Positions 12,268-56,693 of a stretch of DNA of 64,000 bases are shown in pieces. Source of the stretch: Niallia circulans (GTDB lineage: Bacteria; Bacillota; Bacilli; Bacillales; Cytobacillaceae); NCBI RefSeq assembly GCF_003726095.1, contig NZ_CP026031.1:1178001-1242000 (forward strand). Direction: 5' to 3'. The notes beneath the pieces were generated by a model that was given only the letters and a program-made list of their open reading frames with translations, searched no databases and was not told where the DNA came from. Positions within the stretch are counted from its first letter, which is position 1. Each line of letters begins with the position of its first letter. The position numbers were made by a program, and so were the translations under genes.

Positions 12268-13595
12268 ATGTCGAAAATTACATTTCTTGGTGCAGGAAGT
12301 ACCGTATTTGCTAAAAATGTTCTTGGAGATTGTATGTTCGTTGATGCCTTAGAAGGATATGAGTTTGCGTTATATGATATTGATAAACAGCGTTTACAGG
12401 ATTCGGAACAAATGCTTACTAATTTGCAGGAAAGTCTAGGAAAAAACATTATCGTAAAAGCGTATACGGATCGAAAAGAGTCTTTGAGAGGAGCTAAGTA
12501 TGTAATCAATGCGATTCAGGTAGGCGGCTATAAACCAAGTACGGTAATTGATTTTGAAATCCCCAAAAAATATGGCTTACGACAAACGATTGCCGATACA
12601 GTCGGTATTGGGGGATATTTAGAAATTTACGAACTATTCCCGTTATGCTTGATTTTGCAAAAGACATGGAAGAAGTTTGTCCAGATGCCTTATTCTTAAA
12701 TTACACAAACCCTATGGCTGTGCTAACCGGAGTTATGAATCGTTTCACGCCGATTAAAACAATTGGACTGTGTCATAGTGTGCAAATTTGTATAAAAGAA
12801 TTATTTGAAGCAGTAGGGATGGACCGAACAGGAGTGAAAGAGAAAATTGCCGGTATAAATCATATGGCATGGCTTCTTGAAGTAAGCAAGGATGGAGTTG
12901 ATTTATATCCAGAAATTAAGCGGAGAGCTCGTGAATTGCAAAATACAAAGCATGGCGATATGGTTCGATTTGAATTGATGGATAAGTTTGGTTATTATGT
13001 AACAGAGTCATCTGAACATAATGCGGAATATCATCCGTATTTTATTAAATCTCGTTATCCTGAGTTAATTGACCGTTTCAATATTCCATTAGATGAATAT
13101 CCTCGTCGCTGTGAAAAGCAAATTAATGATTGGGTTGCAATGAGAGAGGATCTAGTTAACAATAAAGCCTTGGAACATGTTCGTTCCCGTGAATATGGAT
13201 CACGCATTATCGAAGCGATTGAAACAGATATCCCCTTTAAATTTGGTGGCAATGTGCTTAATACAGGAAGATTGATCAGCAATCTGCCGGAAAAAGCATG
13301 TGTAGAGGTTCCTTGTATTGCGGATCGAAGCGGGATTACTCCAACCTATGTAGGAGATCTCCCTGAACAGCTTGCAGCTTTAAACCGGACAAATATTAAC
13401 ACACAATTGCTGACAATTGAAGCAGCAATGACATTGAAAAAGGAATATATTTACCAGGCGGCAATGCTTGATCCACATACAGCTTCTGAGTTATCGATGG
13501 ACGATATCATCTCCTTATGTGACGAGTTAATAGAAGCACATGGTGACTGGCTGCCGAATTTTACAACGGAAACTAGTGTTGGGTTAGCTAAATAG
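12268..13595 (+). pseudogene. melA: Alpha-galactosidase, glycoside hydrolase family 4, frameshifted
   Basis: The true start is ATG 12268 after GGAGGAGAG. The first frame runs to the end of IADTVGIGG and then loses homology (stop at 12699). The other frame continues with the expected family sequence, FAKDMEEVCPDALFLNYTNPMAV and onward. Restoring one base, most simply an A after the G run near 12615, gives a 442-codon gene. GH4 signatures are present: the N-terminal NAD loop GAGSTVFAKN, then NYTNP, the metal cysteine in GLCHS, and INHMAW. Family members are NAD+ and Mn2+ dependent and hydrolyse melibiose or raffinose-type galactosides. Either a real null allele or a sequencing error; no transporter lies nearby. 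Confidence 0.88.
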
Positions 13596-14611: not shown

Positions 14612-14737
14612 CTTTCTTATTATTTACTTATCACATTCCTTGTATTAAAATTATAAATGGTAAATAGATAATAGAGATCAAATTGTTCGACTATTTTTCT
14701 ATTGTTGGTATATGATTACAATGAGGGGGTAATACAT

Positions 14738-17443
14738 ATGGCAAAAGATTTTTATAATGCCCGCCAAACGTTTGAAGTGGGTGGGAAGCGTTATCACTAC
14801 TATCAATTAGCAGCTTTAGAAAAAGCAGGAATCGGTAAAGTATCGAAATTACCGTATTCTATCAAGGTATTACTAGAATCAGTTTTACGACAAATGGATG
14901 ATTTTGTTATTAAACAAGAGCATGTAGAAAATCTCGCAAAATGGGGAACAGATGAGGTAAAGGAAATTGATGTTCCTTTCAAACCTTCGAGGGTAATCCT
15001 CCAGGATTTCACAGGTGTTCCAGCAGTGGTTGACCTTGCATCTTTACGTAAAGCAATGGCTGACCTAGGGGGAGATCCTAGCAAAATTAATCCGGAGAAA
15101 CCAGTTGATTTAGTTATCGACCATAGTGTTCAGGTTGATAAATATGGAACACCGGATGCATTAAAAGCAAATATGGAATTAGAATTTGAAAGAAATGCAG
15201 AAAGATATCAATTTTTAAGCTGGGCGCAAAAGGCATTTGATAACTATCGTGCTGTACCACCAGCAACTGGTATCGTTCACCAAGTGAATTTAGAATATTT
15301 AGCAAATGTAGTACATGTAAATGAAACAGCTGAAGGCGAGTATGAAACATTCCCTGATACGTTAGTAGGTACTGATTCTCATACAACGATGATTAATGGT
15401 ATTGGTGTTCTTGGCTGGGGTGTTGGTGGTATCGAAGCGGAAGCAGGTATGTTAGGACAACCTTCTTATTTTCCAGTTCCGGAAGTTGTAGGGGTAAAAC
15501 TTGTTGGCGAAATGCCAAATGGCTCTACTGCAACAGACTTAGCCTTAAAGGTAACGCAAGTACTTCGTGCAAAAGGAGTAGTTGGAAAGTTTGTTGAATT
15601 CTACGGACCTGGTGTGCCGCAATTACCACTTGCTGATCGGGCAACTATTGCGAATATGGCACCAGAATATGGAGCAACATGCGGTTTCTTCCCAGTTGAT
15701 AAAGAATCTTTAGCTTATATGAGACTAACTGGTCGTTCTGAAGAGCAAATCAATGTGGTTGAAGCTTACTGTAAGGAAAACGGTTTATTCTTCGATCCAA
15801 ACTTAGAACCGGTTTATACAGATATTGTAGAAATTGACTTAGCAGAAATTGAGCCAAATCTTTCTGGTCCAAAGCGTCCTCAAGATTTAATTCCACTTTC
15901 TAAATTGAAAGAGGTATTCAATGAGTCTGTAACAGCTCCAGAAGGAAACCAAGGGTTTGGCTTAAAAGCAGACGAATTTGATAAAGAAGTAGTAGTGAAC
16001 TTTGCAAATGGGGATTCTACTACAATGAAGACAGGTTCTGTTGCTATCGCCGCAATTACAAGCTGTACAAATACATCGAATCCATATGTATTAGTTGGTG
16101 CAGGCTTAGTTGCGAAAAAAGCAGTCGAAAAAGGAATGGAAGTACCTAAATTTGTAAAAACTTCTTTAGCACCAGGTTCAAAGGTTGTTACTGGTTATTT
16201 AAGAGATTCTGGCCTTCTTCCTTATTTAGAACAAATTGGATTCAACCTTGTAGGATATGGATGTACTACATGTATCGGTAACTCTGGTCCGCTTCGCGAG
16301 GAAATCGAGAAGGCTATCGCGGATTCTGATTTACTTGTAACAAGTGTGCTATCTGGTAATCGTAACTTTGAAGGACGTATCCACCCACTAGTTAAAGCAA
16401 ACTATTTAGCTTCACCGCCATTAGTAGTTGCATATGCTCTTGCTGGTACTGTTGATATTGACTTGCAAAAAGAACCAATTGGAAAAGATAAGGATGGGAA
16501 TGATGTATTCTTCAAGGATATTTGGCCATCTACAGAAGAAGTAAATGAAGTAGTACATCGTACAGTTACACCTGAACTATTTAATAAAGAATATGAAAGA
16601 GTATTTGATGATAACGAACGCTGGAATGAAATTCAAACTAGCAGTGATTCTTTATATAGCTTTGATGATACGTCTACTTATATTCAAAACCCGCCATTCT
16701 TTGAAGGCTTAAAACCTGATCCAGAGCAAGTATTACCATTAAAAGGCTTAAGAGTTGTAGGGAAATTCGGTGATTCTGTAACGACTGACCATATTTCTCC
16801 AGCTGGTGCCATTGGTGTAAATACTCCTGCAGGTAAGTACTTAAAAGATAATGGTGTACAGCCACGTGATTTCAACTCATATGGCTCTCGTCGTGGTAAC
16901 CACGAAGTAATGATGAGAGGGACATTTGCGAATATCCGTATTCGTAACCAAATTGCTCCAGGTACAGAGGGTGGTTTCACTACGCACTGGCCAACTGGGG
17001 AAGTTACCTCCATTTATGATGCATGTATGAAGTATAAAGACGAAGGAACTGGCTTAATGGTTATTGCAGGGAAAGATTACGGAATGGGATCATCTCGTGA
17101 CTGGGCTGCAAAAGGAACAAATCTGTTAGGCATTAAGACGGTTATCGCAGAAAGCTTCGAAAGAATTCATCGTTCTAACTTAGTGTTAATGGGAGTACTT
17201 CCACTACAGTTTAAAGAAGGCGAGAATGCGGAAAGCTTGGGATTAACTGGAAAAGAAACATTCAATGTTTATGTAGATGAAACAGTTAAACCACGTGATT
17301 TTTTAGAAGTTACAGCTACTACGGAAGATGGTAAGAAAATCACTTTTGAAGCATTAGTACGTTTCGATTCAGAAGTAGAGATTGATTACTATCGCCATGG
17401 TGGTATTTTACCAATGGTATTACGTGATAAATTAAAAAATTAA
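14738..17443 (+). CDS. acnA: Aconitate hydratase
   Basis: This 901-residue aconitase (B. subtilis citB) interconverts citrate and isocitrate. Iron-sulfur ligands are visible: the first Cys in [10 protein letters not shown] and the CTTC pair in [12 protein letters not shown]. The C-terminal swivel domain carries [12 protein letters not shown] and [12 protein letters not shown]. The ATG at 14738 follows GAGGGGG; an upstream in-frame TTG at 14702 has no site and is rejected. In Bacilli the apoenzyme also binds RNA. The upstream CcpC-type dyad indicates citrate-controlled repression. The 3' untranslated region has unusual extended complementarity, described separately. Confidence 0.97.
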
Positions 17444-17615: not shown

Positions 17616-18164
17616 ATGAAAATAATTCCTGTACGTTATGATGTGAATAAGCTTCCTTATATAATAAGAAGTGCGGAGGAAAGCGATGCAGAACAGCTTG
17701 CTAGTGTTAGGTTACAGATCGATGGAGAAACAACTTTTCTAGATCGCGAACCTGGAGAGGGCTTACTTACTGAAAAAGAATTTAAACACTTAATCCGCTC
17801 AGATAGCGAAGCGCCAAATCATTTGTTTTTACTTGCAGAGAGAGAAGATGGGCAAATTATTGGCTTTTCTCGTTGTGAGGGTTCTAGTTTGCGACGTCTT
17901 AAGCATAAAGTCGAGTTCGGTATTGCTGTCTTAGAAGAATATTGGGGATATCAAATAGGTACCCATTTATTAGAAGAATCCATAAATTGGGGAGCGGAAA
18001 ATGATATTACAAAAATGACATTATCGGTTATAGAGTTAAATGAAAAAGCGATTAAACTATATAAACGATTTGGCTTTGAAATAGAAGGAGTCTTAAAAAA
18101 AGATAAACGATTAACTAACGGGAAATATTATTCTACCATTTTAATGTCTCGATTTTTCTCCTAA
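17616..18164 (+). CDS. GNAT-family acetyltransferase, RimJ/RimL-like
   Basis: This 182-residue acetyltransferase has motif A as EFGIAVLEEYWGYQIGTHLLEES and motif B as NEKAIKLYKRFGFEIEG, followed by the typical LKKDKRLTNGKYYSTILMS end. This pattern is shared by the RimJ/RimL and spermidine acetyltransferase-like group. The acceptor is unknown. It starts at ATG after AAGGAG and stands alone between acnA and a rhodanese gene. Confidence 0.88.
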   Translation: MKIIPVRYDVNKLPYIIRSAEESDAEQLASVRLQIDGETTFLDREPGEGLLTEKEFKHLIRSDSEAPNHLFLLAEREDGQIIGFSRCEGSSLRRLKHKVEFGIAVLEEYWGYQIGTHLLEESINWGAENDITKMTLSVIELNEKAIKLYKRFGFEIEGVLKKDKRLTNGKYYSTILMSRFFS

Positions 18165-18246
18165 TGGTATGGAAAACGATTCATTAGTAATTTAGAATAA
18201 ACTTTGTTACTATGTATATGTTAGATAATAAAGGAGTGATGAAGAT

Positions 18247-18636
18247 ATGGCATTAACTTTTGGAAAATTGGTAGAAGAGGCTAGAAAAAATGTTCCTGGT
18301 ATTTCTTCTGTTGAGGCAAAAAAGAAAATTGAAGAAAACCCAAATACTTACATAATTGATGTTCAAGATGCTGCAGATGCTGGTGCTTGTGGTTTAATTC
18401 CTAGTTCTGTTAATATCTCTTTAGGAATGCTTCCAATTCGCGCAGATTTGGAATTACCTGAAGAATTAAGAGATCCAGAATTAGCGGATCGTAACCGTCC
18501 AGTTATTGTTACATGTGGTCTTGGTGGACAAGCGTCACTTGGTGCCTACCTATTAAAGCAAATGGGCTTCACAGATGTAGCCTTCATTGAGGGTGGAACT
18601 ACCGCGTGGAAAAAAGAGGGTTTTGAAACAGTTTAA
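18247..18636 (+). CDS. Rhodanese-like sulfurtransferase domain protein
   Basis: This 129-residue single rhodanese domain has the CDC25-like helix, YIIDVQDAADA, and the active-site loop at Cys90 in VTCGLGGQASLGAYLL, ending FIEGGTTAWKKEGF. The catalytic Cys is present. The loop reads CGLGGQ instead of the usual CxxGxR, so the Arg that cradles the persulfide is Gln here, which may alter substrate or activity. It starts at ATG after AAAGGAG and is probably monocistronic. Confidence 0.85.
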   Translation: MALTFGKLVEEARKNVPGISSVEAKKKIEENPNTYIIDVQDAADAGACGLIPSSVNISLGMLPIRADLELPEELRDPELADRNRPVIVTCGLGGQASLGAYLLKQMGFTDVAFIEGGTTAWKKEGFETV

Positions 18637-18654
18637 TTAAGATATGTTATTAAA

Positions 18655-18700
18655 TCTGCCGGTAAACAAATGTTTATCGGCAGTAATAGTCTTTTCCTTA
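18655..18700. terminator. Terminator between convergent genes
   Basis: CTGCCGGTAAAC pairs with GTTTATCGGCAG (one G-U) around an AAAT loop, with only a modest T tract. It lies between the rhodanese and hydroxyacid dehydrogenase genes. Confidence 0.6.
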
Positions 18701-18705
18701 TGTTA

Positions 18706-19689
18706 TTAATACCCCAATTGTTTATCTACGAGGTTCAAAAGTTCCTTGCCTTCTTTAAAGCGCTCGATATTTTCTAAGAATACATCCATGTAACGCTCAA
18801 GAGTATTGGGAGAAAAATATGCATTATGTGGGGAAATAATCAGATTTTCCAATTGCCAAATAGGATGTTGTGGTGGTAATGGCTCTGTTTCAAAGACATC
18901 AAGAGCTGCTCCTGCAATTTTCTTTTCTTTTAAGTGATTAATGAGCTCTTCTTCCACAATTGTATTTCCTCTTCCGATATTAATTAAAAAACTAGTTTTT
19001 TTCATGCTTTCTAATTTTTCTTTATTAATAAGATGGTACGTTTCTGGCGTTGAAGGTAAGGCTAGGATCAAAAAATCAGTTTCTGCCATCACTGATTCTA
19101 GCTGTTCAAGCCCGACAATTTTGTCGGCAGGATCGTCAGTTGCACGTATGGACGGTCTTTTTTTGCAGCCAATCACAAACATATCAAGTGCTTTAGCACG
19201 TTTCGCGATTTGCTTGCCAATCTCCCCATAACCAATAATCGCAACGGTTGCCCCTGAAAGATCGGTTATAGGGGTAGATGTCCAACTTCGATTTAGCTGA
19301 TTCCGAATCATATAAGAAATTCCCCTCGCTAAACCTGTCATCATTGCAATTGTATGCTCTGCTATAGGTACAGAAGTGCATCCTTTTGTATTTGTAATGA
19401 TGATATCATTCTTTTTCATTTTCTCTGTCAAAAGTGCATCTAAGCCAACACTTAAAGATTGAACCCATTTAATATAGGGCGCTTGTTCAGTGATGGCTAA
19501 TGAATCTGTTAATCCCAAAGTCAAGACTATGTTGCAATCACTAATATCTTGCTTTATTGGCGGTTCGGGCTCCCCGAATTGCCATGGATCTACTATATAT
19601 TCCGCGCCTGAAGATTTTATTTTATCTAAATACTTTTGTGGAATAGTTCTTCTGATATATATTTTAGGAATTGTTTTCCTGTTTATCAT
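18706..19689 (-). CDS. D-isomer-specific 2-hydroxyacid dehydrogenase
   Basis: This 327-residue NAD(P)-dependent enzyme reduces 2-ketoacids. The Rossmann loop is IIGYGEIGKQIAKRAKAL. Catalytic Arg lies in INIGRGNTI, Glu in DVFETEPLP, and His in SPHNAYFS. No substrate can be assigned from sequence. Its ATG overlaps the stop of the upstream aminotransferase (TAATG), so the two are coupled. The pair could interconvert an amino acid and its hydroxy acid through the ketoacid, which is an inference from operon structure. Confidence 0.92.
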   Translation of the reverse strand: MINRKTIPKIYIRRTIPQKYLDKIKSSGAEYIVDPWQFGEPEPPIKQDISDCNIVLTLGLTDSLAITEQAPYIKWVQSLSVGLDALLTEKMKKNDIIITNTKGCTSVPIAEHTIAMMTGLARGISYMIRNQLNRSWTSTPITDLSGATVAIIGYGEIGKQIAKRAKALDMFVIGCKKRPSIRATDDPADKIVGLEQLESVMAETDFLILALPSTPETYHLINKEKLESMKKTSFLINIGRGNTIVEEELINHLKEKKIAGAALDVFETEPLPPQHPIWQLENLIISPHNAYFSPNTLERYMDVFLENIERFKEGKELLNLVDKQLGY

Positions 19690-20909
19690 TAATTTACTCC
19701 CTTAATCATTTGTTTGCTATTTACATACTCATAATAAGTATTTGCGAGTCGTTTAATGGCTTCTTCAATGATATCCTCCTGACAGAAAGTAAAGCATAAT
19801 CGCATATGATTATATCCTTCGTCTTTTAAGAAGAAATGCTTACCAGCGATATAGGAAACTCCGGCTGATGCTGCAGCATCTATAAATTCACTTGTGTCAA
19901 TATGGCAAGGAAAGGTAATCCAAAGAAAAAATCCGCCATTTGCTTCATGAAAGGTAACATCATTACCAAAATATTGCTTTATGGCGGAAACCATGGCGTT
20001 TTTACGCGATAAATAAAGAGAATTTAAATAGCAAATATGTTCATCCATACCGATTTGATCAAGTAAATTTTTTGTAACCTCTTGAACATAGACGCTTGTT
20101 AACCCATCTATTTTTAAAATTCTCATTTTTTCGATAATTTCTGTTAAGCCAATAGCCCAGCCGAGTCGTAAACCTGGGGCGATAATTTTGGAAAAAGTAC
20201 TTAAGTAAACGACTCGTTCAGGTCCGTACGAATAGATAGCAGGATTATATATTCCGTCAAAAGAAAGCTCGACATAAGCATCATCTTCGATAATAAAGAA
20301 ATTATACTCATAGGCTAATTCAGCAAGTCGTTTTCTTCTGTCTACTGATAGATTAACCCCACCAGGATTTTGATAATTCGGTATTACATACATTAATTTG
20401 GGGAGCGGTAAATTGTTTTTTACTCTTTCGCTTAATTCTTGTTCCACTAAATCGACTCTTAAGCCATTTTCATCAATAGGAAAAGAAGCTAATTTTGTTT
20501 CTGCTAATTGAAATGTTTTCAATGCGCCGAAGAATGTAGGGGCTTCTACCCATACTTCATCGCCAGGGTCGGTTAAGGTTCTTGTAACTAAATCTATTGC
20601 TTGTGAACTGCCTGCAGTTATAAGTATTTCATTCTCTGTGGCTTTTATCTCACGTAACTTTGATCTTTCTTTAATCCAGTTAATAACAGCGTTTACTCCT
20701 GTTCCGCCACTATAAGCTAATGCATGTCTTCCTTGTGTTTGCATGGCAGCTTCTGTAGCGGCGGTCATTTTATCAACCGGAAGTGATTCGGGTGCTGGAA
20801 AACCAAATGATAAGGGAATCAGATTTTCTTGATTTTGAGCGAAGGCGGAACCGATTACCTCGATGTCAGGAAATCTTCTACTATAGGAAAAAGGTTTTAA
20901 TAATTGCAT
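19689..20909 (-). CDS. PLP-dependent aminotransferase, LysN/2-aminoadipate type
   Basis: This is about 406 residues of class I/II aminotransferase without an N-terminal DNA-binding domain. Key parts are YVIPNYQNPGGV (with the PLP-contact Asn), EDDAYVELSF, and the Schiff-base Lys in YLSTFSKIIAPGLRLGW. This is the subgroup of 2-aminoadipate and aromatic/branched aminotransferases. The longer GTG start at 20918 is possible; ATG 20909 is preferred because GGTGAT lies just upstream. It leads an operon with the hydroxyacid dehydrogenase. Confidence 0.88.
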   Translation of the reverse strand: MQLLKPFSYSRRFPDIEVIGSAFAQNQENLIPLSFGFPAPESLPVDKMTAATEAAMQTQGRHALAYSGGTGVNAVINWIKERSKLREIKATENEILITAGSSQAIDLVTRTLTDPGDEVWVEAPTFFGALKTFQLAETKLASFPIDENGLRVDLVEQELSERVKNNLPLPKLMYVIPNYQNPGGVNLSVDRRKRLAELAYEYNFFIIEDDAYVELSFDGIYNPAIYSYGPERVVYLSTFSKIIAPGLRLGWAIGLTEIIEKMRILKIDGLTSVYVQEVTKNLLDQIGMDEHICYLNSLYLSRKNAMVSAIKQYFGNDVTFHEANGGFFLWITFPCHIDTSEFIDAAASAGVSYIAGKHFFLKDEGYNHMRLCFTFCQEDIIEEAIKRLANTYYEYVNSKQMIKGVN

Positions 20910-21049
20910 GCGTATCACCGTCCAAAGATTATTTAAAAGCTTTATAAAGATAGATTTTAATAAATATAAGCTATTTATTTCGTGATGGGAAATATTAAAA
21001 ATGCCTAAAAATGAGAGAAAACAAGAGATAGCTCGATAAAAACACAGTT

Positions 21050-21079
21050 AAATAACGAATATTCGGAATTTTGTTATTT
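21050..21079. promoter_or_regulatory. Inverted repeat in the divergent region
   Basis: AAATAAC (21050-21056) and GTTATTT (21073-21079) flank a perfect CGAATATTCG palindrome (21056-21065). It lies between the divergent aminotransferase and glutamine synthetase genes. It does not fit the TnrA/GlnR consensus TGTNA-N7-TNACA. Confidence 0.35.
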
Positions 21080-21224
21080 TTATAATAAATATTTGTTATT
21101 GCTATCCATATAGGTAAATATCTGTTTCGGTCAATAATCTTACATATGACCATCTTTCGACAAAAATTGCAAAAACTATCTAACAGGATATAGGTGGAAA
21201 AACGGACAATACGGTAAGAAATAA

Positions 21225-21239
21225 ATGTAAACGCTACCT
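21225..21239 (+). promoter_or_regulatory. Candidate cre (CcpA) site upstream of glutamine synthetase
   Basis: ATGTAAACGCTACCT matches the cre consensus WTGNAARCGYWWWCA at 13 of 15 positions. It ends about 30 bp before the -35 box, the type of upstream position at which CcpA can activate. Confidence 0.4.
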
Positions 21240-21270
21240 AATAAAATTTTTAAAAAATTAAAAAAAAACA

Positions 21271-21299
21271 TTGTTTTAACAGAATTTTTTTCTTATAAT
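21271..21299 (+). promoter_or_regulatory. Sigma-A promoter of the glutamine synthetase gene
   Basis: TTGTTT (21271-21276), a 17-bp spacer and TATAAT (21294-21299), 45 bp before the start codon. An A-tract lies directly upstream as a possible UP-like element. Confidence 0.75.
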
Positions 21300-21344
21300 G
21301 AAATCAAGTTAGATAATAGAACATGAATTGTGAGGTAAGTTAAC

Positions 21345-22679
21345 ATGAGTGAAATTACATTAGAGAAAATTGAAAGTATTGTAAAAGAAAAAAATGTAGA
21401 ATTATTACATCTACAATTTGTGGATATTGAAGGAATTTTAAAAAATATTACAATTACTGCTCAACAATTAGATGATGCTGTTGAAGGAAAAATCATGATT
21501 GACGGTTCATCCATTAAAGGATTTTCTCCTATTAACAAATCAGATTCTTATTTATTACCAGACTTAAACACATTCGCAGTTTTACCTTGGACTGAAACAG
21601 AAGGATATTCAGAAGCGCGGTTCCTTTGTTCTGTAACAAATCCTGATGGATCTTTATTTGAAGGTGATACTCGTAATGTTCTCAAGAAAACAGTCGAGCG
21701 CGCTGCTGAAAATGGATATAGTATTTCTGTCGGACCAGAGTTAGAATTCTTCCTATTTGCAACCGACGAAAATGGATATCCAACTACAGAATTAGGAGAT
21801 AGAGGCGGCTATTTTGAACCATCACCAAAGGATTTGGGAGAAAAAGTCCGCGTTGAAATTTTCAAAACATTAAGAGCAATGGGCTTCACTATCGAAGCAC
21901 TTCACCATGAAGTAGCAGAAGGTCAACATGAGATTAACTTCAAATATGCAGATGCATTAACTGCAGCTGACTTGGCTACAACATATAAATGGGTTGTGAA
22001 AACAATCGCTTCTCAATATGGTTTACACGCAACATTTATGCCAAAACCAGTATTCGGAATTAATGGTTCAGGAATGCATGTTAATATGTCATTCTTTAAA
22101 GATGGAGAAAATTGCTTCTATGATGCGGACGATGATTTAGAATTATCTGAAACAGCCTATTCGTTTATAGCGGGTGTTTTAGAAAATGTTAAGAGTTTCG
22201 TAGCTGTTACAAATCCTCTAGTAAACTCTTATAAGCGTTTAGTACCAGGATATGAAGCACCTTGCTACTTAGCATGGTCTGCATCCAATCGTTCTGCTTT
22301 AATCCGTATTCCTGCCAAACGCGGAATGGCTACTCGTGTGGAGCTTCGTTGTCCAGACCCATCATCTAATCCATATTTAACATTTGCTGTTATCGCTGCA
22401 GCAGGTTTAGATGGAGTGGAAAAAGGCTTAAGAGCACCAGCACCAATTAACGAAGATATCTTCCATATGACAGATGATCGTCGTGAAGAACTTGGAATTG
22501 ACAGCTTACCTGGTGGTTTAGAAGCTGCTATTGCTGAACTAGAAGCAGGAGAAATTGGTCTTAAAACACTTGGAGAGCATGTATTCACTGAGTATGTTGC
22601 TGCGAAGAAAGAAGAGTGGGATAGCTACCGTACAACAATCCATACTTGGGAAATTGAAAACTATCAATATAAATTCTAA
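21345..22679 (+). CDS. Type I glutamine synthetase, stand-alone paralogue lacking Arg62
   Basis: This 444-residue ligase makes glutamine from glutamate, ammonia and ATP, with the same length as B. subtilis GlnA. Conserved elements include DGSSIKGF, GPELEFFLF, HHEVAEGQHEI, NGSGMHVN, the Glu-flap RLVPGYEAPCY, and NRSALIRIP. The position of B. subtilis Arg62, needed for glutamine feedback inhibition and for signalling to TnrA, reads Pro (SIKGFSPINKSD against SIEGFVRIEESD). No glnR precedes it, unlike the usual glnRA operon. I infer a second glutamine synthetase with altered feedback behaviour, so I give no gene symbol. It is monocistronic with its own promoter and terminator. Confidence 0.95.
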   Translation: MSEITLEKIESIVKEKNVELLHLQFVDIEGILKNITITAQQLDDAVEGKIMIDGSSIKGFSPINKSDSYLLPDLNTFAVLPWTETEGYSEARFLCSVTNPDGSLFEGDTRNVLKKTVERAAENGYSISVGPELEFFLFATDENGYPTTELGDRGGYFEPSPKDLGEKVRVEIFKTLRAMGFTIEALHHEVAEGQHEINFKYADALTAADLATTYKWVVKTIASQYGLHATFMPKPVFGINGSGMHVNMSFFKDGENCFYDADDDLELSETAYSFIAGVLENVKSFVAVTNPLVNSYKRLVPGYEAPCYLAWSASNRSALIRIPAKRGMATRVELRCPDPSSNPYLTFAVIAAAGLDGVEKGLRAPAPINEDIFHMTDDRREELGIDSLPGGLEAAIAELEAGEIGLKTLGEHVFTEYVAAKKEEWDSYRTTIHTWEIENYQYKF

Positions 22680-22700
22680 TTTATAAGTTAATAGATTCCA

Positions 22701-22750
22701 TAAACTGCAAATAACCACCTTTTCGGGTTGCTGATTTGCAGTTTTTCTTT
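22701..22750 (+). terminator. Terminator after glutamine synthetase
   Basis: AAACTGCAAAT pairs with ATTTGCAGTTT (22702-22712 with 22734-22744), with an inner AACC/GGTT stem and a T-rich tail. Confidence 0.88.
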
Positions 22751-22912
22751 TTATTCAAGCAATAAGCGTAATATTCACTATGCCTCTAGGGGAATTCCTT
22801 CTCTTTTTTATGTTCTTTTCTTTAATTTCCGGTAAGTTATGATAAAATAAAGAAGGATGTATGAAATAGAATGGATACGTCATCAGATTATTGTAATAAG
22901 GAGATTTGCTAA

Positions 22913-23845
22913 ATGGAAAAAGTATTGATATTTGGTCATAAAAATCCGGATACGGATACTATTTGTTCTGCGATTGCGTATGCAGAATTAAAAAAGGCAC
23001 TTGGAGTAGAAGCAGAGGCTGTTCGTCTTGGTGACGTTAGTGGAGAAACAAAATTCGCATTAGATTATTTTAAAACAGAGGCTCCTCGTTTTATTGAAAA
23101 GGCAGCTACAGAAGCTAATTCAGTTATCTTGGTAGATCACAATGAATTCCAACAAAGTGTGGAAGACATTAAAGATGTTACAATTTTAGAGGTTATTGAT
23201 CACCATCGTATCGCTAATTTCGAGACAAGTGATCCTTTATACTACCGTGCTGAACCAGTAGGTTGTACGGCAACTATATTAAATAAAATGTATAAAGAAA
23301 ATAATGTAGAAATTAAGAAAGAAGTTGCTGGATTAATGCTTTCAGCTATTATTTCTGATTCCTTATTATTTAAGTCACCAACTTGCACAGAACAAGATGT
23401 ACAAGCTGCCAAGGAATTAGCGGAAATTGCTGGTGTAAATGCAGAACAGTATGGATTAGACATGCTGAAAGCTGGTGCTGATTTAAGTGATAAAACAGTT
23501 GATCAATTACTAAGTATTGATGCAAAAGAATTTACAATGGGTACATATAAAGTAGAAATTGCGCAAGTGAATGCAGTTGATACAAATGATGTCATTTCCA
23601 AACAAGCTGAATTAGAAACGTCTATTCAAGCAATTATCGACAAAAAAGGATTAGATTTATTCTTGCTTGTCGTAACGGATATTTTAAATAACGATTCTGT
23701 TGCTGTTGCTTTAGGCAATAAAGCAGAAACAGTAGAGAAGGCATTTAATGTATTATTAGAAAATAATAGTGCCTTATTAAAAGGTGTCGTATCTCGTAAA
23801 AAACAAATCGTACCAGTTTTAACAGAGACTTTTGAAGCGCTATAA
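22913..23845 (+). CDS. ppaC: Manganese-dependent inorganic pyrophosphatase
   Basis: This 310-residue family II (DHH) pyrophosphatase hydrolyses PPi to phosphate in the cytosol. Metal-binding motifs are GHKNPDTD near the N-terminus, VDHNEF, and [10 protein letters not shown]. The C-terminal DHHA2 domain ends with the substrate-binding [12 protein letters not shown]. Length equals the usual 309-310. It starts at ATG after AAGGAGA, and a terminator follows. Confidence 0.96.
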
Positions 23846-25393: not shown

Positions 25394-25537
25394 ATGAGTG
25401 ATCCTAAAAAAGACAGCAAACACTTTGTTCCAAGTCATATCGGAACTAAATCTAGAAGCTTTGGTGGGAACAAAGGAAAGCAAATGCAGGACAAATCAGG
25501 ACAACATGCTCAAGTAATACAAACAAAGGGCGAATAA
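25394..25537 (+). CDS. sspN: Small acid-soluble spore protein N
   Basis: This 47-residue protein has the SspN pattern: [19 protein letters not shown], then [20 protein letters not shown] at the end. It is a minor forespore protein. The start ATG has GAAGGAG upstream. In B. subtilis sspN is followed by tlp and then yneP; here the next genes belong to an accessory insert and no tlp was found. Confidence 0.9.
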
Positions 25538-25566
25538 TCCTTCCTATCGAATAAAGGAAGATGAAT

Positions 25567-25611
25567 AAAAAGCAATGGCTTCTTTTCTAATTGAGGCTAT
25601 TGCTTTTTTTG
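25567..25611 (+). terminator. Terminator after sspN
   Basis: AAAAGCAATGGC-type arm pairs with GGCTATTGCTTTT (one G-U), followed by T7. Confidence 0.85.
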
Positions 25612-25766
25612 CCTTCTATGATTGAGTTACACATTTTTCAAGGATAGCAATTTGCATCCTGCATATATTATGGTTATCAGATATTCACAGTGTGAAAAGT
25701 ACATAATCATTAACGAAAAAGAAGGAATATGTTAGTATTAATAAGGAATTAAATTTATTAAGAGAT

Positions 25767-28115
25767 GTGAATATATTGAATAACGAGAAAATAATTACAA
25801 ATAGAAAATATCCAGAAATTTTTCTGATAGAAAAGGAATTTGAAGAACATGGATTTGTGCAAGATGAAAAGAAGATTTTAGATGAAATACAAAAATTAAC
25901 TGAGGGTGAGAATGGAAAAGAAATCTCTCAGTTATTAACGATTGCTGCTTTATCAAGAATGTACACCGATAAAGAAGATACGATAGCGGTTGCCTGGTTG
26001 AATAAAGCGATTGAGCTGGATGAAGAGAATAAAACAGCTCTAAAATACCTTTCCCAATTCGATTGGAAAAATTTCAGCGGCTTACTGGATTCACTGGTTT
26101 TTCCTAATATTCGCGAAACGGATAATCGGACCGCCAAACGAAAAATTGCTGAGCAATATATTAATAATTGCCGCTCGTTTTTAGAACAGATGGATGAGGA
26201 AGCTACCCATCTGCAAAATCAGAAGAAAAATGCATCCCTATATGAAAATAGGGATGCTGTTGCAAAATATGAAGCAATTGAAGAATTATTACAAAAGGTA
26301 ATGGAGAAAACGTCTCAGTTATTAAAATCAGCAGAAGAATATGAAGAGTCTATTAGCGGCGTGTTTCACACATCGATTTATTATGAGAGTGTAAAAGAAT
26401 TAATTGAAGAATTGACTGAATTAAAGGATGAATGGACAAGCCTTTTTGTAGAAGATGTAGAGGAAGATAATAAGTCTCTTTCCTCTTTAGAGGAACTAGA
26501 GCAAATGGTAGGATTGGATGCTGTAAAAAAAAGAGTTTATGATTTTTATCAATTTTTACATTATCAAAAGTCTCGGAAAAAGCTAGGCTATAATATTCAA
26601 GATGAATTAAGCTTAAATATGATATTTACAGGAAATCCAGGTACTGGGAAAACTACTTTGGCAAGATTGATGGCAAAGATTTATCATGAATTGGGCGTAT
26701 TGCCAAGCGCTGAAGTTGTGGAGACAGATCGGTCTCAATTAATCGGCGGCTTTATGGGACAAACAGAGGAAAATGTCCGTTCTGTGGTAAAACAAGCGGT
26801 TGGCGGTGTCTTATTTATCGATGAAGCCTATAGCCTAAAAAGAGAAGGACAGTCTGGAAATGATTATGGTCAAACGGCAATAGATACTCTTGTATCTTTA
26901 ATGACAGGTTCAGAATTTGGTGGTAAATTTGCTGTCATTTTAGCAGGATATCCTGAAGAAATGCGTCAATTTTTAGACGGAAACCATGGTTTAAGAAGTC
27001 GCTTTCCTGCTTCTAATATGATTCATTTGCCAGATTATACACCAACGGAATTATTGGTGATAGGAGAAAGAATTGCTTCAGCGAATGACTATGTCATGAC
27101 TGAGGACGGAAAAAAAGCATTGCTAAAAAGGCTTGAGAGAGAACAGGTAGATGAGAGCTTCGGAAATGCTCGAGCTGTTCGCAATATTGTGCTGGATGCA
27201 ATATTTAGCAAAGGTTCTCGCAAAGCAAACGAACAAGAAATATTTAAATATACTCTATTGCAAGAGGCTGATTTTGTTTGTGAAGAAGATGACAAACAAC
27301 TTGATCCTGCAAAAGAGCTTAATAAATTGATTGGATTAGCAAAAGTAAAAGATGAAATAAAAAAAATTATTGCGCTTGTTAAGGTGCAGCAATTGAGACA
27401 GACTAAAGCCAAAAAGAATCTGCCTATTCAACTGCATGCTGTCTTTACGGGAAATCCAGGTACCGGAAAAACTACGGTAGCTAAACTATACGCCCAGTTT
27501 CTTAAGGATTGCGGAATATTAAAAAGAGGTCACTTAGTTGTTACAAGCAGGGCAGATTTTGTCGCCGGCTATGTTGGCCAATCAGCTATTAAGACAAGAA
27601 AAAAAATAAGAGAAGCCCTTGGCGGGGTGCTATTTATCGATGAAGCTTATTCATTGTTAGGAAATAGTGGTCAGGATTTTGGGAAAGAGGTTGTTGATAC
27701 ATTAGTCATGGAAATGACAAAGCATAATGAGAATTTAGTTGTTATTCTTGCAGGATATCCGAATGAAACCAATACTCTATTACAAAGCAACCCAGGATTA
27801 ACTTCAAGGTTTAAAAAATTTATCCATTTTGAAGATTATTCTGCAGCAGAATTGGTTGAAATCATGAAGTTATATGCAGATAAATACGATTATTTATTAT
27901 CAACAGATGCAATCCAATTACTGCAAAATATGCTGCCGACAGTATCTACGGATGGAAATGGACGATTTGCAACTAATTTAATCGATGAAGCAGTTCAATT
28001 ACAGGCTTTACGACTATCTGAGCAATTAGAACAAGGAATAGATGCAGATGTTTCTACGATAACTGCTGAGGATATTGAAAGTGTACTAAAAGAGAAAAGG
28101 AGAATCGACGAATAG
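25767..28115 (+). CDS. Tandem-AAA CbxX/CfxQ (SpoVK-like) ATPase
   Basis: This 782-residue protein has an N-terminal helical, TPR-like region (residues about 1-110), a coiled-coil stretch (about 125-240) and two AAA domains of the CbxX/SpoVK class. Each AAA domain has Walker A GNPGTGKTT (about 289-297 and 562-570) and Walker B VLFIDEAYSL (about 348-357 and 621-630), with LAGYP sensor segments and RSRF/TSRF arginine fingers, so both look active. Family members remodel or activate partner proteins; SpoVK acts in sporulation and the eukaryotic-type relative activates Rubisco. The GTG start lacks a strong ribosome site, and TTG 25776 is an alternative. First gene of an insert between sspN and yneP. 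Confidence 0.88.
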   Translation: MNILNNEKIITNRKYPEIFLIEKEFEEHGFVQDEKKILDEIQKLTEGENGKEISQLLTIAALSRMYTDKEDTIAVAWLNKAIELDEENKTALKYLSQFDWKNFSGLLDSLVFPNIRETDNRTAKRKIAEQYINNCRSFLEQMDEEATHLQNQKKNASLYENRDAVAKYEAIEELLQKVMEKTSQLLKSAEEYEESISGVFHTSIYYESVKELIEELTELKDEWTSLFVEDVEEDNKSLSSLEELEQMVGLDAVKKRVYDFYQFLHYQKSRKKLGYNIQDELSLNMIFTGNPGTGKTTLARLMAKIYHELGVLPSAEVVETDRSQLIGGFMGQTEENVRSVVKQAVGGVLFIDEAYSLKREGQSGNDYGQTAIDTLVSLMTGSEFGGKFAVILAGYPEEMRQFLDGNHGLRSRFPASNMIHLPDYTPTELLVIGERIASANDYVMTEDGKKALLKRLEREQVDESFGNARAVRNIVLDAIFSKGSRKANEQEIFKYTLLQEADFVCEEDDKQLDPAKELNKLIGLAKVKDEIKKIIALVKVQQLRQTKAKKNLPIQLHAVFTGNPGTGKTTVAKLYAQFLKDCGILKRGHLVVTSRADFVAGYVGQSAIKTRKKIREALGGVLFIDEAYSLLGNSGQDFGKEVVDTLVMEMTKHNENLVVILAGYPNETNTLLQSNPGLTSRFKKFIHFEDYSAAELVEIMKLYADKYDYLLSTDAIQLLQNMLPTVSTDGNGRFATNLIDEAVQLQALRLSEQLEQGIDADVSTITAEDIESVLKEKRRIDE

Positions 28116-28935
28116 GCTGGTGACGAATACAGATGGACAATTACTTTCTCTCAATAAGGGATATTGAAATGGATTATGTTGATATCGATATGATAGGGTG
28201 CTCGTTAAACAATTGCTAAAAAAGTCAAGCTTCAAATGTTGAATTAGAGCATAAACCTTGATATATAGGGATTTATTGGAGTTTTTTATTTGTTTTTTAA
28301 CTTGCTGATTTTTCCTAACTTATCCTGAATTATTCTTGTAATTAACAAATTGCGGTGATTATAGTCAATCCAAGATAATCACCGTGACAACAAGTTGGTA
28401 AAAAATATACATCATTTGTTTAATGATGGAATTTTAGTTGCCAGAAGAGACCTAGTTGTAAGTGTAGGAGGGAGAGGTTAGAAGGGGGGGATTTTTGAAA
28501 GTGAATAAAGAAAAATAAACGATATACTAAACATTAGAAATCGTGCGCAAGAATTTGTTGCCTATAAGTATAAAAAAAAACTGAGGCTGAAAGAGAAAAA
28601 ATAAATAACTTATATTAGCACTTGCATTATTAGGAAATAAACATAAGGAATCCTCATCCTAACCCTAGAACTCCTTAGCCATAGACTTAAAAGAAACAGA
28701 ATTAAAATCGAACTTGATGAGTTTAAAGGTATATAATAGCTCCATAATACGACATTTGCTAAATTTTATTATATGTTGGTACTTTTTATAGAATTTACAA
28801 CAAAAAGTAAAACAAATACAAATCTACAGAGCCTGCAAGAAAATTATGGATATAGTACGATAGAAACAGAGTGAAAATGAAGTGTAAAACTAAAAGAAGT
28901 ATGGTTTAGGGAATATTTTCAATTGGAGTGATTAA
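28116..28935. other. Long AT-rich gap between the AAA and TerD-type genes
   Basis: 820 bp without an intact gene. It holds a perfect 10-bp inverted repeat, CGGTGATTAT/ATAATCACCG (28353-28362 and 28375-28384, 12-nt loop, no T tract), more like an operator than a terminator. It also holds a short broken ORF at 28501-28604, described separately. Confidence 0.6.
28501..28604 (+). pseudogene. Short frameshifted ORF relic
   Basis: GTG at 28501 follows a GAAGGGGGG site. Adding one A in the AAAAA run near 28515 would give an uninterrupted basic, helical peptide of about 34 residues (NDILNIRNRAQEFVAYKYKK core). As it stands the frame stops after five codons. Origin unknown. Confidence 0.3.
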
Positions 28936-31017
28936 ATGGTTATAAATGATGTTTACCTAAGAAGAAAAAACAAATTACTATTGAATAAAGGTAATGAAAA
29001 AACTCCACAGAAAAAATACATTGCGACAATATTATTAAACATTGATAATTTGGGATTTACATTATCAAATGATATTATTGAAATCCTATATACATATTCC
29101 ATAAGTCAATTAAATAGTTTCTACATTGCTTTAGTTAAAAATTTAAAAGAGTTAGTAGGAGCAAACAAACAATACAATCCAATGTATCCTAATTTTCCCC
29201 ACCAAGTAATGGATGCAGATGCCTCAGAATTATTCATTAATGCTATTTTTCATTACTGGTCTTTTGGATCATTACTTCCTAATTATAACAAAGAAGAGAG
29301 ATTACCATTATATGATATAACAACCAAGAAAGTAATAGAGACGGGTACCGAGGAAGAATTTGAAAGTATTTTTATAAATCTATTATCTTCTAAAACTTCT
29401 ATTTCTGAAACTGATAAAGAGGATTTAAGTTGGTTTTTCAATGAATATCCTGACAAAGTTAACAATATCTTACCTAAAGAAATACCTTCAAAAGAAAATG
29501 TAGCTTTGTTATCTATATTGTTACTGCATAATAACATAAATACTTCTGTATTATTTGATTATGTAAAGACAGCTACTGATGTATTAAGAATTGCCGTTGC
29601 TATGTCAGAAGGCGATATTAGTTTAGCAACTAATACAAAGTTTAAAAGTTTCAAACGTAAGCAAAGACGTTTATTAATGTCCTTATTAGAAAATTGTTCT
29701 AATATTGAAGAGGATATGAAACGATATAAGAATAGATGGATTAGATTAGGTGAAAGATTACATCCTACAGAATTTAAAAAATATGAAAAAGTAAAAGAGG
29801 CTTTTACTAAGCTGAGAAATAATCAACCAATTCAAACTTTTAATGGTGTGTTAACTAATGCGCTAGAAAATAATAGAATGGATCAAGCATTATCTTTATT
29901 AGTGAAAAGACCAGGGGAATTCGCACGTAAATTAGATCATTTAATAAGATTGCATACTAACCCAAATGTAATACTAAATGAATTTAAAATTGTGGCGGAT
30001 AGTGTTGAAACTACAGTGCTATTGCAAGTTAGGGAGCACTTTAAAAATAGAAATAATCAAAAAGAGAAAAGAACATTTTTCCCTAAAGGTAATGTTGCTA
30101 AATTATTTGTCATTGATAATAACCTTCCTGAGATTGAGGAGAATATATGCAATAGCATAGTACAAATCTGCGAAAATAGTTTAGTAAATGAATATAAGAA
30201 AAGGGACTATCTTGGTAAGGTTTATCTAGATGAATCATTAAAAAATTATCTTGTGCCTTTTTCGCAACGTTCAGCAAGTAAGTCACTTAAATCAGTAGTA
30301 AGAGGTTCAAAATTAGATATAAGCGATTCAACCAGTACTATTCGCTCCTTTATTTATTGGAAAGAAAATAATTTGGATAGAGCCGATATAGATTTGTCTG
30401 CAGTAATGTATGATGATAATTGGGATTACTTAGAGCATGTGTCCTATACAAATCTGAGATCATCAAAGTATAAAGCTTTTCATAGTGGTGATATTACTTC
30501 AGCTTCTCATGGAGCAAGTGAATTTATCGATTTAGAAATTGAATCTGTTAGAAAATTTGGAGGAAGATATATAGTGCTTTCAATCCAATCCTTTACAGGT
30601 CAAACTTTTAGTGAGTTACCCGAATGTTTTATGGGATGGATGAGCAGGGAAAATCCCAATTCTGGAGAAATTTACGAACCTAAAACAGTGGAGAACAGAA
30701 TGGATGTAACTTCTGAAGCTAGAGTAAGTATACCTATGATAATCGATCTTCATGAAAACAAAGTGATATGGACAGATATAGCACTTAGAAACAATCCTGA
30801 TTATTACAATAATGTGGAAGGTAATAAAATAGGTATGGTATTAATGGGTAAAGCAATGACTACTTTAATTAAACCTAATCTTTATGAGTTAATAGAATTG
30901 AATATTAAGGCAAGAGGGGAAAAATGTGATAATATAGAAGAGGCAGATATTGTATTTTCTATAAATCAAGGTGTTACTCCTTTTGACCAGGATGTAATTG
31001 TGTCACAATATTTATAA
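28936..31017 (+). CDS. TerD-type stress protein, MXAN_6230/SCO0854-like, without RING region
   Basis: This 693-residue protein has a long helical N-terminal part, including MYPNFPHQVM, TATDVLRIAVAMSEGD, RWIRLGERLHP and FFPKGNVAKLF. These landmarks match the MXAN_6230/SCO0854 group as I know it. From about residue 470 it carries a TerD-related beta domain with DIDLSAV (about 483-489), HSGDIT (516-521) and FTGQTFSELPECFMGWM. The Asp-rich loops correspond to the metal sites of TerD proteins. Named family members usually carry an N-terminal RING-type zinc domain; no Cys/His cluster exists here. Function unknown; the wider Ter group is linked to stress, tellurite and phage resistance. Start ATG follows GGAG. 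Confidence 0.8.
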   Translation: MVINDVYLRRKNKLLLNKGNEKTPQKKYIATILLNIDNLGFTLSNDIIEILYTYSISQLNSFYIALVKNLKELVGANKQYNPMYPNFPHQVMDADASELFINAIFHYWSFGSLLPNYNKEERLPLYDITTKKVIETGTEEEFESIFINLLSSKTSISETDKEDLSWFFNEYPDKVNNILPKEIPSKENVALLSILLLHNNINTSVLFDYVKTATDVLRIAVAMSEGDISLATNTKFKSFKRKQRRLLMSLLENCSNIEEDMKRYKNRWIRLGERLHPTEFKKYEKVKEAFTKLRNNQPIQTFNGVLTNALENNRMDQALSLLVKRPGEFARKLDHLIRLHTNPNVILNEFKIVADSVETTVLLQVREHFKNRNNQKEKRTFFPKGNVAKLFVIDNNLPEIEENICNSIVQICENSLVNEYKKRDYLGKVYLDESLKNYLVPFSQRSASKSLKSVVRGSKLDISDSTSTIRSFIYWKENNLDRADIDLSAVMYDDNWDYLEHVSYTNLRSSKYKAFHSGDITSASHGASEFIDLEIESVRKFGGRYIVLSIQSFTGQTFSELPECFMGWMSRENPNSGEIYEPKTVENRMDVTSEARVSIPMIIDLHENKVIWTDIALRNNPDYYNNVEGNKIGMVLMGKAMTTLIKPNLYELIELNIKARGEKCDNIEEADIVFSINQGVTPFDQDVIVSQYL

Positions 31018-31653
31018 GTTAAAATTGGGCTATTGCTTGTCTTCCTTCTATATCCATCTTCCTGAATTAGATGAGCAAATTCCCCGATTGTTTAATTAAG
31101 GCTATGTTATATCTTCCTTCAAACTACAATCTGTGTGAATGAATTAGATATGACAATTTCCTTTATAAAGGTTAGGGTGATAATAGCCCTGACCTTTTAT
31201 TTACTATATTGCGATTGGATTTATTTAAAAGATGTAGTATTATGGATAATATTCATTGGTCTTTTCTGTTTTGAAGCAGTAATAACCAGGGAATTGGACT
31301 ACTTAAGATGCTTTCTAATGAAAAATTAAATTCTAGTTGATACCATATTTACATACATAAAATGAGTAATATTATGACTGTATTAAAAGAATTTGTTGAA
31401 TAAATAAAAAAGAGAAAGTGTAAGTCTCTATTATAAGTAATTTAGTTGATGAATTTATGAGACTAGGTGAAAGAGTTATTAAATTAAACAGCTTATATAT
31501 AATGTTGGACAATAAAAATCTTTTTAAGAACCTATGGTCATATAATGCATCAATTGCCATATCTGATGCAGTTAAGAAATTTAACGTTATCACAGAGTGA
31601 TAAAAATGGTGATTATTTTATAAAAAGTTGAGAAAAAGGAAGTGCTAGAAACC
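31018..31653. other. Gap with possible gene remnants before yneP
   Basis: No intact gene with a ribosome site is seen. A 64-codon GTG frame (31135-31329) would encode two hydrophobic segments but has no Shine-Dalgarno. A 47-codon ATG frame at 31457-31600 (MRLGERVIKLNSLYIMLDNK at its start) has protein-like composition and also lacks a site. Both may be remains of genes in the insert. Confidence 0.4.
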
Positions 31654-32088
31654 GTGGTATATGTGAGTTCTAGGGATATTGAATTGTATTATGCTGATAC
31701 CGATATGATGGGGGTTATTTATCATGCGAATTATCTTAAATTTTTTGAACGAGGAAGAACTGGTTTAATTGAAGATCTTGGGTATAGCTATTTAGAAATG
31801 GAGAACAAGGGGTATTTTGCACCTGTTTATGATGTGTATGCCCAATATAAAAAGCCATTACGCTATGGAGATCAGGCAAAGGTGAAAACCTGGGTAGAAA
31901 CAAACGATGGCATAAAAACAGTTTATGGATATCAGATAATTAATCAGGACGAAGAAGTTTGCGTAGAGGGAACTACTACGCATATTATCGTTTCAAAAGA
32001 AACATTTCGTCCTAAATCGTTTAAAAAGATGTTTCCAGAATGGTTTAATAAATATGAAGAAATTAAAAAGCAACCTTCTGACAAGTAA
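31654..32088 (+). CDS. yneP: Acyl-CoA thioesterase, 4HBT hotdog family (YneP)
   Basis: This is about 144 residues of a hotdog-fold thioesterase. The family motif is YADTDMMGVIYHANYLKFFERGR, with the catalytic Asp of TDMMGVIYH. THIIVSKETFRPKSFKK closes the fold. It hydrolyses short or aromatic acyl-CoA thioesters in the YbgC style. Two GTG starts are possible; 31654 is chosen because AAGGAAGTG ends nine bases before it, whereas 31642 overlaps that site. Next gene is yneQ, as in B. subtilis. Confidence 0.88.
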   Translation: MVYVSSRDIELYYADTDMMGVIYHANYLKFFERGRTGLIEDLGYSYLEMENKGYFAPVYDVYAQYKKPLRYGDQAKVKTWVETNDGIKTVYGYQIINQDEEVCVEGTTTHIIVSKETFRPKSFKKMFPEWFNKYEEIKKQPSDK

Positions 32089-32112: not shown

Positions 32113-32403
32113 ATGGCCTTTGGTTTGAAGAAAAGCGAACTAAGAGAATGGAAAAGAAAAATTGATAATGGAGAAATTGCTTTTTTAACTCATTATTGGC
32201 TGGATGATCGTTTTCCAGGCTGTAAGACTGTTACGAAAGTTGGCTGTGCGGATCTAGAGAAATTAAAAACCTGGGGAAAGAAATATGGCTTAAAAGAGGA
32301 ATGGATACATTATCGTCATGACGGCTATTCCCATTTTGACCTATTAGGCGATACTCAAAAGAAGATTTTAAAAGAGGAAGGGATTGACCAACCTTTACGA
32401 TAG
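32113..32403 (+). CDS. yneQ: YneQ-like conserved small protein
   Basis: This 96-residue basic cytoplasmic protein contains LTHYWLDDRFPGCKTVTKVGC and EEWIHYRHDGYSHFDLLG. It is a conserved Bacillus protein of unknown function, always next to yneP and yneR in my knowledge. It starts at ATG after AAAGGGAG, 24 bp after yneP, and a bidirectional terminator follows. Confidence 0.85.
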   Translation: MAFGLKKSELREWKRKIDNGEIAFLTHYWLDDRFPGCKTVTKVGCADLEKLKTWGKKYGLKEEWIHYRHDGYSHFDLLGDTQKKILKEEGIDQPLR

Positions 32404-56574: not shown

Positions 56575-56693
56575 TTCTTCTTATCTTTCAAGCTTAAATG
56601 CTTGATGGAATTAGCACCTTTTCAGTATGTAAAAATACTGAAGGTTGCTGAGGTTTCGCTGGGCCATTCCCTCTACCTCTCTTGATAAGAATT
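56575..56693 (-). promoter_or_regulatory. SAM riboswitch (S-box leader, SAM-I)
   Basis: The minus strand carries the S-box landmarks in order: CTTATCAAGAG (P1 5' side), AGGTAGAGGGAATGGCCC, GCGAAACCTCAGCAACC, a P3 hairpin with CAGTATTTTTACATACTG, GAAAAGGTGCTAATTCC, a P4 hairpin, and GATAAG closing P1. High SAM stabilises the aptamer and allows the downstream terminator to form. It controls the four-gene methionine operon. Confidence 0.96.

Follow-up and report, generated by a model that had tools for sequence, protein, structure and literature searches.

A TerD-type gene inserted between a core AAA ATPase gene and yneP in Niallia circulans, with a possible link to Ro60-type RNA binding and RtcB

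We analysed a 64,000-nucleotide stretch (the window) of the 5.18-Mb, single-contig genome of Niallia circulans assembly GCF_003726095.1 (contig NZ_CP026031.1, positions 1,178,001 to 1,242,000), in which two large open reading frames (ORFs) lie between sspN (ending at 25537) and yneP: 25767–28115, encoding a tandem AAA ATPase of 782 amino acids (aa), and 28936–31017, encoding a TerD-type protein of 693 aa. An earlier interpretation made from the DNA letters (the sequence-only reading) described these two ORFs correctly, together with long non-coding gaps at 28116–28935 and 31018–31640, and joined them into one acquired island reaching from 25.5 to 31.65 kb. We find that the true insert is smaller, spanning ~28.2–31.67 kb, or ~3.5 kb with one intact gene, that of the TerD-type protein, and that the ATPase gene is an ordinary core gene beside yneP, outside the acquired part. 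The 693-aa protein resembles Ro60 in its predicted fold over residues 141–450, and genomes with its gene nearly always own RtcB. The features of the locus, in window coordinates, are as follows.

25394–25537, + strand: sspN, encoding the 47-aa small acid-soluble spore protein N; left core neighbour (direct reading, tblastn)
25767–28115, + strand: tandem AAA ATPase, 782 aa; core gene, outside the insert
28133–28198, + strand: decayed remnant of the 5' end of the original yneP, at the left border of the insert
28199–28935, no strand: left non-coding part of the insert, eroding; no ORFs of at least 50 aa
28936–31017, + strand: 693-aa TerD family protein, sole intact gene of the insert; RING-less relative of NCBIfam NF041916
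29356–30195, + strand: region for the putative Ro60/TROVE-like helical part, ~residues 141–420
30283–30855, + strand: region for the TerD domain, ~residues 450–640
30856–31014, + strand: conserved C-terminal tail, residues 641–693
31018–31635, no strand: right-hand non-coding DNA of the insert; identity to N. circulans 96%
31167–31197, + strand: terminator-like hairpin 3' of the TerD-type gene, with a 12-pair stem and a T-rich tail
31654–32088, + strand: yneP (thioesterase), functional copy with a 4HBT_2 match; the ORF list puts its start at 31642
32113–32403, + strand: yneQ, right core neighbour (tblastn synteny in 13/13 Niallia genomes)

For comparison, we used 13 Niallia genomes (where 'N. 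circulans' denotes a second genome, counted apart from the window genome), a family sample of 193 genomes from 25 genera and a class-wide sample of 398 genomes. Gene order was read at the 13 Niallia loci and at the 17 best-scoring family loci (L057–L073; 16 from one genus and one from another), and composition percentiles refer to same-length windows from a 400-kb sample of the same genome. The name sspN follows the sequence-only reading and the gene order of Bacillus subtilis.

The ATPase contains two stretches matching PF00004 and AAA_lid_6, scores 506 bits against the NCBIfam model spore_V_K and keeps its Walker A and B motifs intact in both modules (GNPGTGKT and FIDEAYSL each occur twice in the translation); by sequence, it is a tandem AAA protein of the SpoVK/CbbX/EccA clade. 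Both of its modules match the spore_V_K, EccA and CbbX models, but it differs from these proteins in having two AAA modules and ~230 N-terminal residues. Shorter relatives with a single AAA module (322–345 aa) are listed in 12 of the 13 Niallia genomes. The ATPase gene directly follows sspN in 13/13 Niallia genomes, with yneP, yneQ and yneR downstream in all 13, and a match at E ≤ 1e-100 is present in 180 of the 193 family genomes and 22 of the 25 genera. At the 17 best-scoring loci outside the genus the order sspN–ATPase–yneP–yneQ holds without exception, the matched ends of the ATPase gene and yneP lying 2–109 bases apart. In GC content (35.8%, 65th percentile), in tetranucleotides and in codon use the ATPase gene resembles the host, and its ratio of nonsynonymous to synonymous change (dN/dS) against N. 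circulans is 0.061. PADLOC returned weak AAA matches only, the best being IetA at 58 bits. As a core gene next to yneP, the ATPase gene should not be counted as defence cargo.

The sequence-only reading had proposed an acquired defence or stress module in which the ATPase, as a remodeller, is linked to the TerD-type protein. While the two genes are indeed adjacent in two genomes, within the genus they adjoin only there; the TerD-type gene, unlike the ATPase gene at its constant position, occurs in just 11 of the 193 family genomes, two of them Niallia genomes carrying it at this site, and it has no constant operon partner, no neighbour cluster occurring at more than 4 of 25 Bacilli loci. Having found no conserved ATPase–TerD pair, we rejected the module, which we regard as extremely improbable. 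Comparison of the sspN–yneP interval across relatives thus separates the two genes, the ATPase gene recurring at the same place with host-like composition and the TerD-type gene not; the earlier observation was partly right, and the idea of a module wrong. Also, tlp is indeed missing between sspN and yneP, as had been noted, but this is unrelated to the insert: one Tlp match lies elsewhere in 13/13 Niallia genomes, and sspN and the ATPase gene are contiguous in every one of them.

The description as an acquired, partly eroded island does hold for the TerD-type part, with its presence at this site in 2/13 Niallia genomes (the window genome and N. circulans), low GC content, diverging left flank and yneP stub, though not for the ATPase. 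Likewise, the AT-richness ascribed to the whole interval is confined to its second half: the insert (28199–31671) has a GC content of 29.2% (1.3rd percentile) and ranks in the top 5% of windows for tetranucleotide deviation. The TerD-type gene alone has a GC content of 29.5% (2.6th percentile); its tetranucleotide deviation is equalled or exceeded by 9% of host windows, and its codon choice is unremarkable, fitting the host at the 90th percentile. The insert contains no Rfam or tRNA matches, nor is there an Rfam match anywhere in 28000–31800. The terminator-like hairpin is weakly supported, four such hairpins being found versus 2.7 in shuffles.

Just past the ATPase stop codon, the stub corresponds to the first codons of yneP and is the one identifiable member of the short broken ORFs reported earlier; it is also present in N. 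circulans (L021). Positions 28157–28198 repeat 31672–31713 (42 nt, 88% identical). The 5' form of the stub is that of G001, G004 and G010, three Niallia genomes in which yneP directly follows the ATPase gene with 30–43 bases between the matched ends, while the intact yneP, 3.5 kb further on, has a second 5' form common to G003, G005, G006, G007, G009, G011 and G012, as well as its own likely ribosome-binding site (31633–31644). The ATPase tree places G001, G004 and G010 as the sister group of the window genome plus N. circulans. Since the two genes lie so close together in this sister group, the insert is derived; the ATPase–yneP pair is ancestral.

We hold it to be highly probable that an acquired TerD-type insert came to lie between the ancestral ATPase gene and yneP. 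About 3.5 kb with one intact gene entered in the ancestor of N. circulans and the window genome, or in one of the two with subsequent exchange. What survives of the native yneP start is the left-hand stub, and yneP itself now carries a 5' end of the type seen in other Niallia lineages. On the simplest reading, two allelic forms of the locus recombined, the right end of the exchange lying within yneP homology and the left end being an illegitimate join, which fits the geometry of the stub and the second yneP 5' form; yneP itself is too short for its tree to place the crossover. Alternatively, the insert could be the remnant of a site-specific integrative element, with the 42-nt yneP repeat as its attachment core; the element would then have brought in the new yneP 5' end. 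This would agree with the flanking direct repeat, with the difference between the stub and the right-hand yneP 5' end and with the presence of other sequence at the site in six more of the 13 genomes. However, apart from the TerD-type gene, the longest ORF in the insert is at most 84 aa, leaving no integrase or transposase of normal size, and the window has no tRNA; moreover, the right-hand 5' end resembles the yneP starts of other Niallia species, and the 6 other occupied genomes lack a second yneP stub (E ≤ 1e-4). We therefore consider an integrative element improbable and prefer recombination between allelic forms.

The ATPase–yneP interval looks like a permissive insertion site, being occupied by 1.8–3.5 kb in 8/13 Niallia genomes. 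In G005 the interval (L026, 4822–7510) holds a 672-aa, chemoreceptor-like ORF, and in G003, G007, G009, G011 and G012 (L028–L032) a lipoprotein-like ORF of ~255 aa with an ORF of 64–73 aa, the former intact in two of these five genomes and otherwise decayed, as judged by eye. The TerD-type gene of the window genome has a synonymous distance of 0.077 from its N. circulans counterpart, versus 0.29 for the ATPase gene, 0.27 for both yneP and yneN and 0.18 for yneQ, and the right non-coding part is 96% identical, against 83% over 773 aligned bases for the left gap. A recent exchange of the TerD-gene block between the two lineages would explain this pattern. The gene is intact and has a dN/dS of 0.19 against N. 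circulans, so that, under purifying selection, it is probably working.

Overall, 7/13 Niallia genomes carry the TerD-type gene, five of them as a 66–67% identical copy elsewhere, and six are without it. In N. taxi, one of the five, the copy lies on a 1.44-Mb plasmid, and a blastn-level search of plasmid DNA returned one record, this same megaplasmid copy. The protein of N. circulans NBRC 13626 is 97% identical to that of the window. In the tree, five Niallia copies and one further sequence form a single clade (100/99), which fits movement of the gene within the genus. More widely, the gene occurs in the 11 family genomes mentioned above (one copy being a fragment) and in 43/398 of the class-wide sample, one search scored more than 4,000 relatives, and members are found in Bacilli, Actinomycetota, Pseudomonadota, Deinococcota and phages. 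A phage origin was rejected, the best phage relative being 46.5% identical and nine BFVD rows at E ≤ 0.001 at most 21% identical. At locus L137 (G386), a 361-aa ORF that by eye looks TnpB-like separates the pieces of a split relative of the TerD-type gene.

Close relatives of the window protein carry the NCBI name TerD family protein. Against NF041916, the MXAN_6230/SCO0854 family RING domain-containing protein, it scores 447 bits (best stretch residues 299–652), below the cut-off of 600 bits, which the Bacilli matches also fail to reach. It is homologous to that family over much of its length and shares a TerD domain in the C-terminal half, but the RING finger found at ~residue 130–165 in Variovorax, Streptomyces and other relatives is absent; Prok-RING_4 matches 5/24 diverse relatives. 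Neither SCO0854 nor MXAN_6230 is mentioned in the literature searched, which covered few subscription papers. Pfam gave no match of any kind to the window protein, PF02342 included, and PF02342 matches 8/56 relatives. A TerD fold in the window protein is nevertheless supported, and the family has an invariant H-S-G-D..G..E block. PADLOC found nothing for this protein.

For the predicted model of residues 141–450, Ro60 is the longest close structural match, three separate Ro60 entries aligning over 261–279 residues while the other rows to rank 15 align over 78–107. The window protein also matches human Ro60 over its whole length, the alignment to 9nen running to the C-terminal end of both chains, and the C-terminal tail (residues 641–693) may complete, as its second half, a vWA-like domain that TerD interrupts. 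Three observations weigh against this resemblance: in the domain-model search, the Ro60 rows are tied by Z with others; in Foldseek with the full model, Ro60 is not among the listed top 50; and no sequence similarity between the window protein and Ro60/TROVE is detectable. The TROVE Pfam profile was not found in the window protein, among the 19 families to which 24 relatives gave matches (E ≤ 10) or among the 25 families listed, of 30, for 56 relatives. The protein further differs from Ro60 and Rsr in its inserted TerD domain and in having no conserved vWA metal-site motif (DxSxS is conserved at no position in 56 relatives), and Y RNA was not found in the insert (Rfam, 28000–31800 only). On balance, the model suggests that a TROVE-like fold is fairly probable. 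Within the literature searched, TerD and Ro60 occur together only in PMC7824862 and in one dermatomyositis review.

The second line of evidence is co-occurrence. In the class-wide sample, RtcB is present in 41/43 genomes with the TerD-type family and in 91/355 without (Fisher p 9e-20), the exceptions being G563 and G572, the G572 copy containing five in-frame stops. The corresponding counts are 74/76 against 98/169 in the family of G335 (Fisher p 5e-12; exceptions G785 and, carrying just a 259-aa fragment, G794), 10/11 against 30/182 in the window's own family (Fisher p 5e-7) and 7/7 against 3/6 in Niallia (p 0.07). At the level of genera, those with the TerD-type gene also have RtcB in 8/8, 9/9 and 2/2 cases in three samples (p 7e-5, 0.008 and 0.05); the three RtcB samples overlap and are thus not independent, and the genome counts are inflated by shared ancestry and uncorrected for genome size. 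These limits count against a functional tie, as do G563 (L123) and G785, where a copy without stops stands in a genome with no detectable RtcB.

Gene neighbourhoods were read in 14 of 42 matching plasmid and phage records, one of them without annotation, and RNA-related neighbours appear in five of the 13 annotated stretches but not in the other eight. In Variovorax, rtcR, the RNA-repair operon activator, lies 1.3 kb away, divergent, with three small ORFs between; in Vibrio vulnificus an RNA ligase family protein is encoded 3.2 kb away; on a Streptomyces plasmid an RNB ribonuclease gene lies 1 kb downstream on the other strand; and in two phages the TerD-type gene sits among tRNA genes. In Heyndrickxia camelliae, rtcB is 2.1 kb downstream; rtcB lies near the TerD-type gene at 1/25 Bacilli loci. 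Passages of PMC7790460 place rsr and Y RNA genes within some rtcBA operons in Salmonella and other bacteria, and TerD and RtcB occur together, in the literature searched, only in PMC7824862, in separate sections of the passages concerned. Taken together, we lean towards a functional tie of the 693-aa protein to RtcB.

On two plasmids of Streptomyces and one of Deinococcus (L162, L179, L181), the TerD/RING gene has AAA/MoxR ATPase genes, vWA genes or both within ~5 kb. Separately, rtcB itself is interrupted at the same spot of its active-site motif (VGV|DIGCGM) in G006 (L191:5135–5547), G007 (L193:3070–3365) and G009 (L194, ~940–1225; 286 nt, from tblastn alone). The G006 and G007 inserts match the group I intron of Rfam, though with scores (39.4 and 48.4 bits; E 1.2e-8 and 1.7e-11, in short searches) short of the 50-bit gathering threshold.

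The likeness to Ro60 might reflect a shared helical-repeat arrangement only, the protein being a scaffold of other function and its co-occurrence with RtcB a matter of ancestry. The much longer alignments of the three Ro60 entries and the RNA-repair or tRNA contexts in Variovorax, Heyndrickxia, Vibrio and two phages make this unlikely. We also weighed a more conventional role. TerD proteins belong to ter operons, and elsewhere the TerD domain is a calcium- or nucleotide-binding module. As a classical Ter stress protein, the 693-aa protein would bind calcium through TerD and act alongside other Ter proteins under metal, tellurite or phage stress, its helical part being a generic scaffold and RtcB only marking stress-rich, larger genomes. 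Consistent with this are the well-supported TerD domain, the invariant block, a TerB gene ~2 kb off in Deinococcus sp. KNUC1210 (1/13 annotated plasmid and phage stretches) and passages linking TerD proteins to stress (PMC7824862; PMC12363816). TerD structures are under 200 aa, while here the domain sits inside a 693-aa protein, and the window gene, unlike those of tellurite-resistance, calcium-binding TerD proteins, has no visible ter operon. However, TerB, TerC, TerF or TelA were recognised neither beside it nor among the two nearest neighbours on each side at 25 Bacilli loci (from clusters and sequence starts, with no domain search). Nor does a Ter stress role explain why the gene is nearly restricted to RtcB genomes or why, over the other 450 residues, the longest of the close fold matches is to Ro60, and we judge it doubtful.

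Our preferred explanation overall, to which we assign a probability of roughly one half, combines the locus history above with a Ro60-type RNA scaffold that carries TerD and has RtcB as its partner. According to the model, the 693-aa protein may be a remote Ro60/TROVE-type RNA-binding scaffold, with a helical-repeat ring followed by a C-terminal domain into which TerD is inserted. The ring would bind misfolded, damaged or cleaved RNA, probably tRNA-like, as Ro60 does, and RtcB would provide ligase activity in trans for RNA repair or quality control. TerD, placed where Ro60 has vWA, could shift conformation on a calcium or nucleotide signal; that it gates the RNA function to a stress signal is a speculative possibility. 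Our results are fold assignments and co-occurrence only, from which we infer RNA binding, partnership and gating.

The flanks largely follow the gene order claimed earlier, with sspN on the left and yneP, yneQ and yneR on the right, but acnA (14702–17443) does not adjoin yneN. Five ORFs of more than 180 aa lie between them (17616–23845; by eye an acetyltransferase, a dehydrogenase, an aminotransferase, a glutamine synthetase and a manganese pyrophosphatase), and thus the left flank too differs from the B. subtilis order. Elsewhere in the window, the overlapping ORFs 12181–12699 and 12645–13595 look by eye like a single glycosidase-type gene split by a frameshift (span 12181–13595), and a SAM riboswitch lies on the minus strand at 56578–56691 (100.6 bits).

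The TerD-type gene is a worthwhile lead into a widespread protein family known so far by domain name only, to which a tie to Ro60 and RtcB would give a testable job. Tentatively, the thousands of 'TerD family' and 'MXAN_6230/SCO0854 RING' proteins could belong to the Ro60 superfamily as a large branch that has so far gone unrecognised. They would be rings that bind RNA, equipped with a TerD sensor (and in other phyla a RING finger), would work with RtcB-type repair and would travel as single-gene cargo between chromosomes, megaplasmids and large phages. If this is true, bacterial RNA-repair systems would extend beyond Rsr and Y RNA, and the family would offer a hint at what the TerD domain senses.

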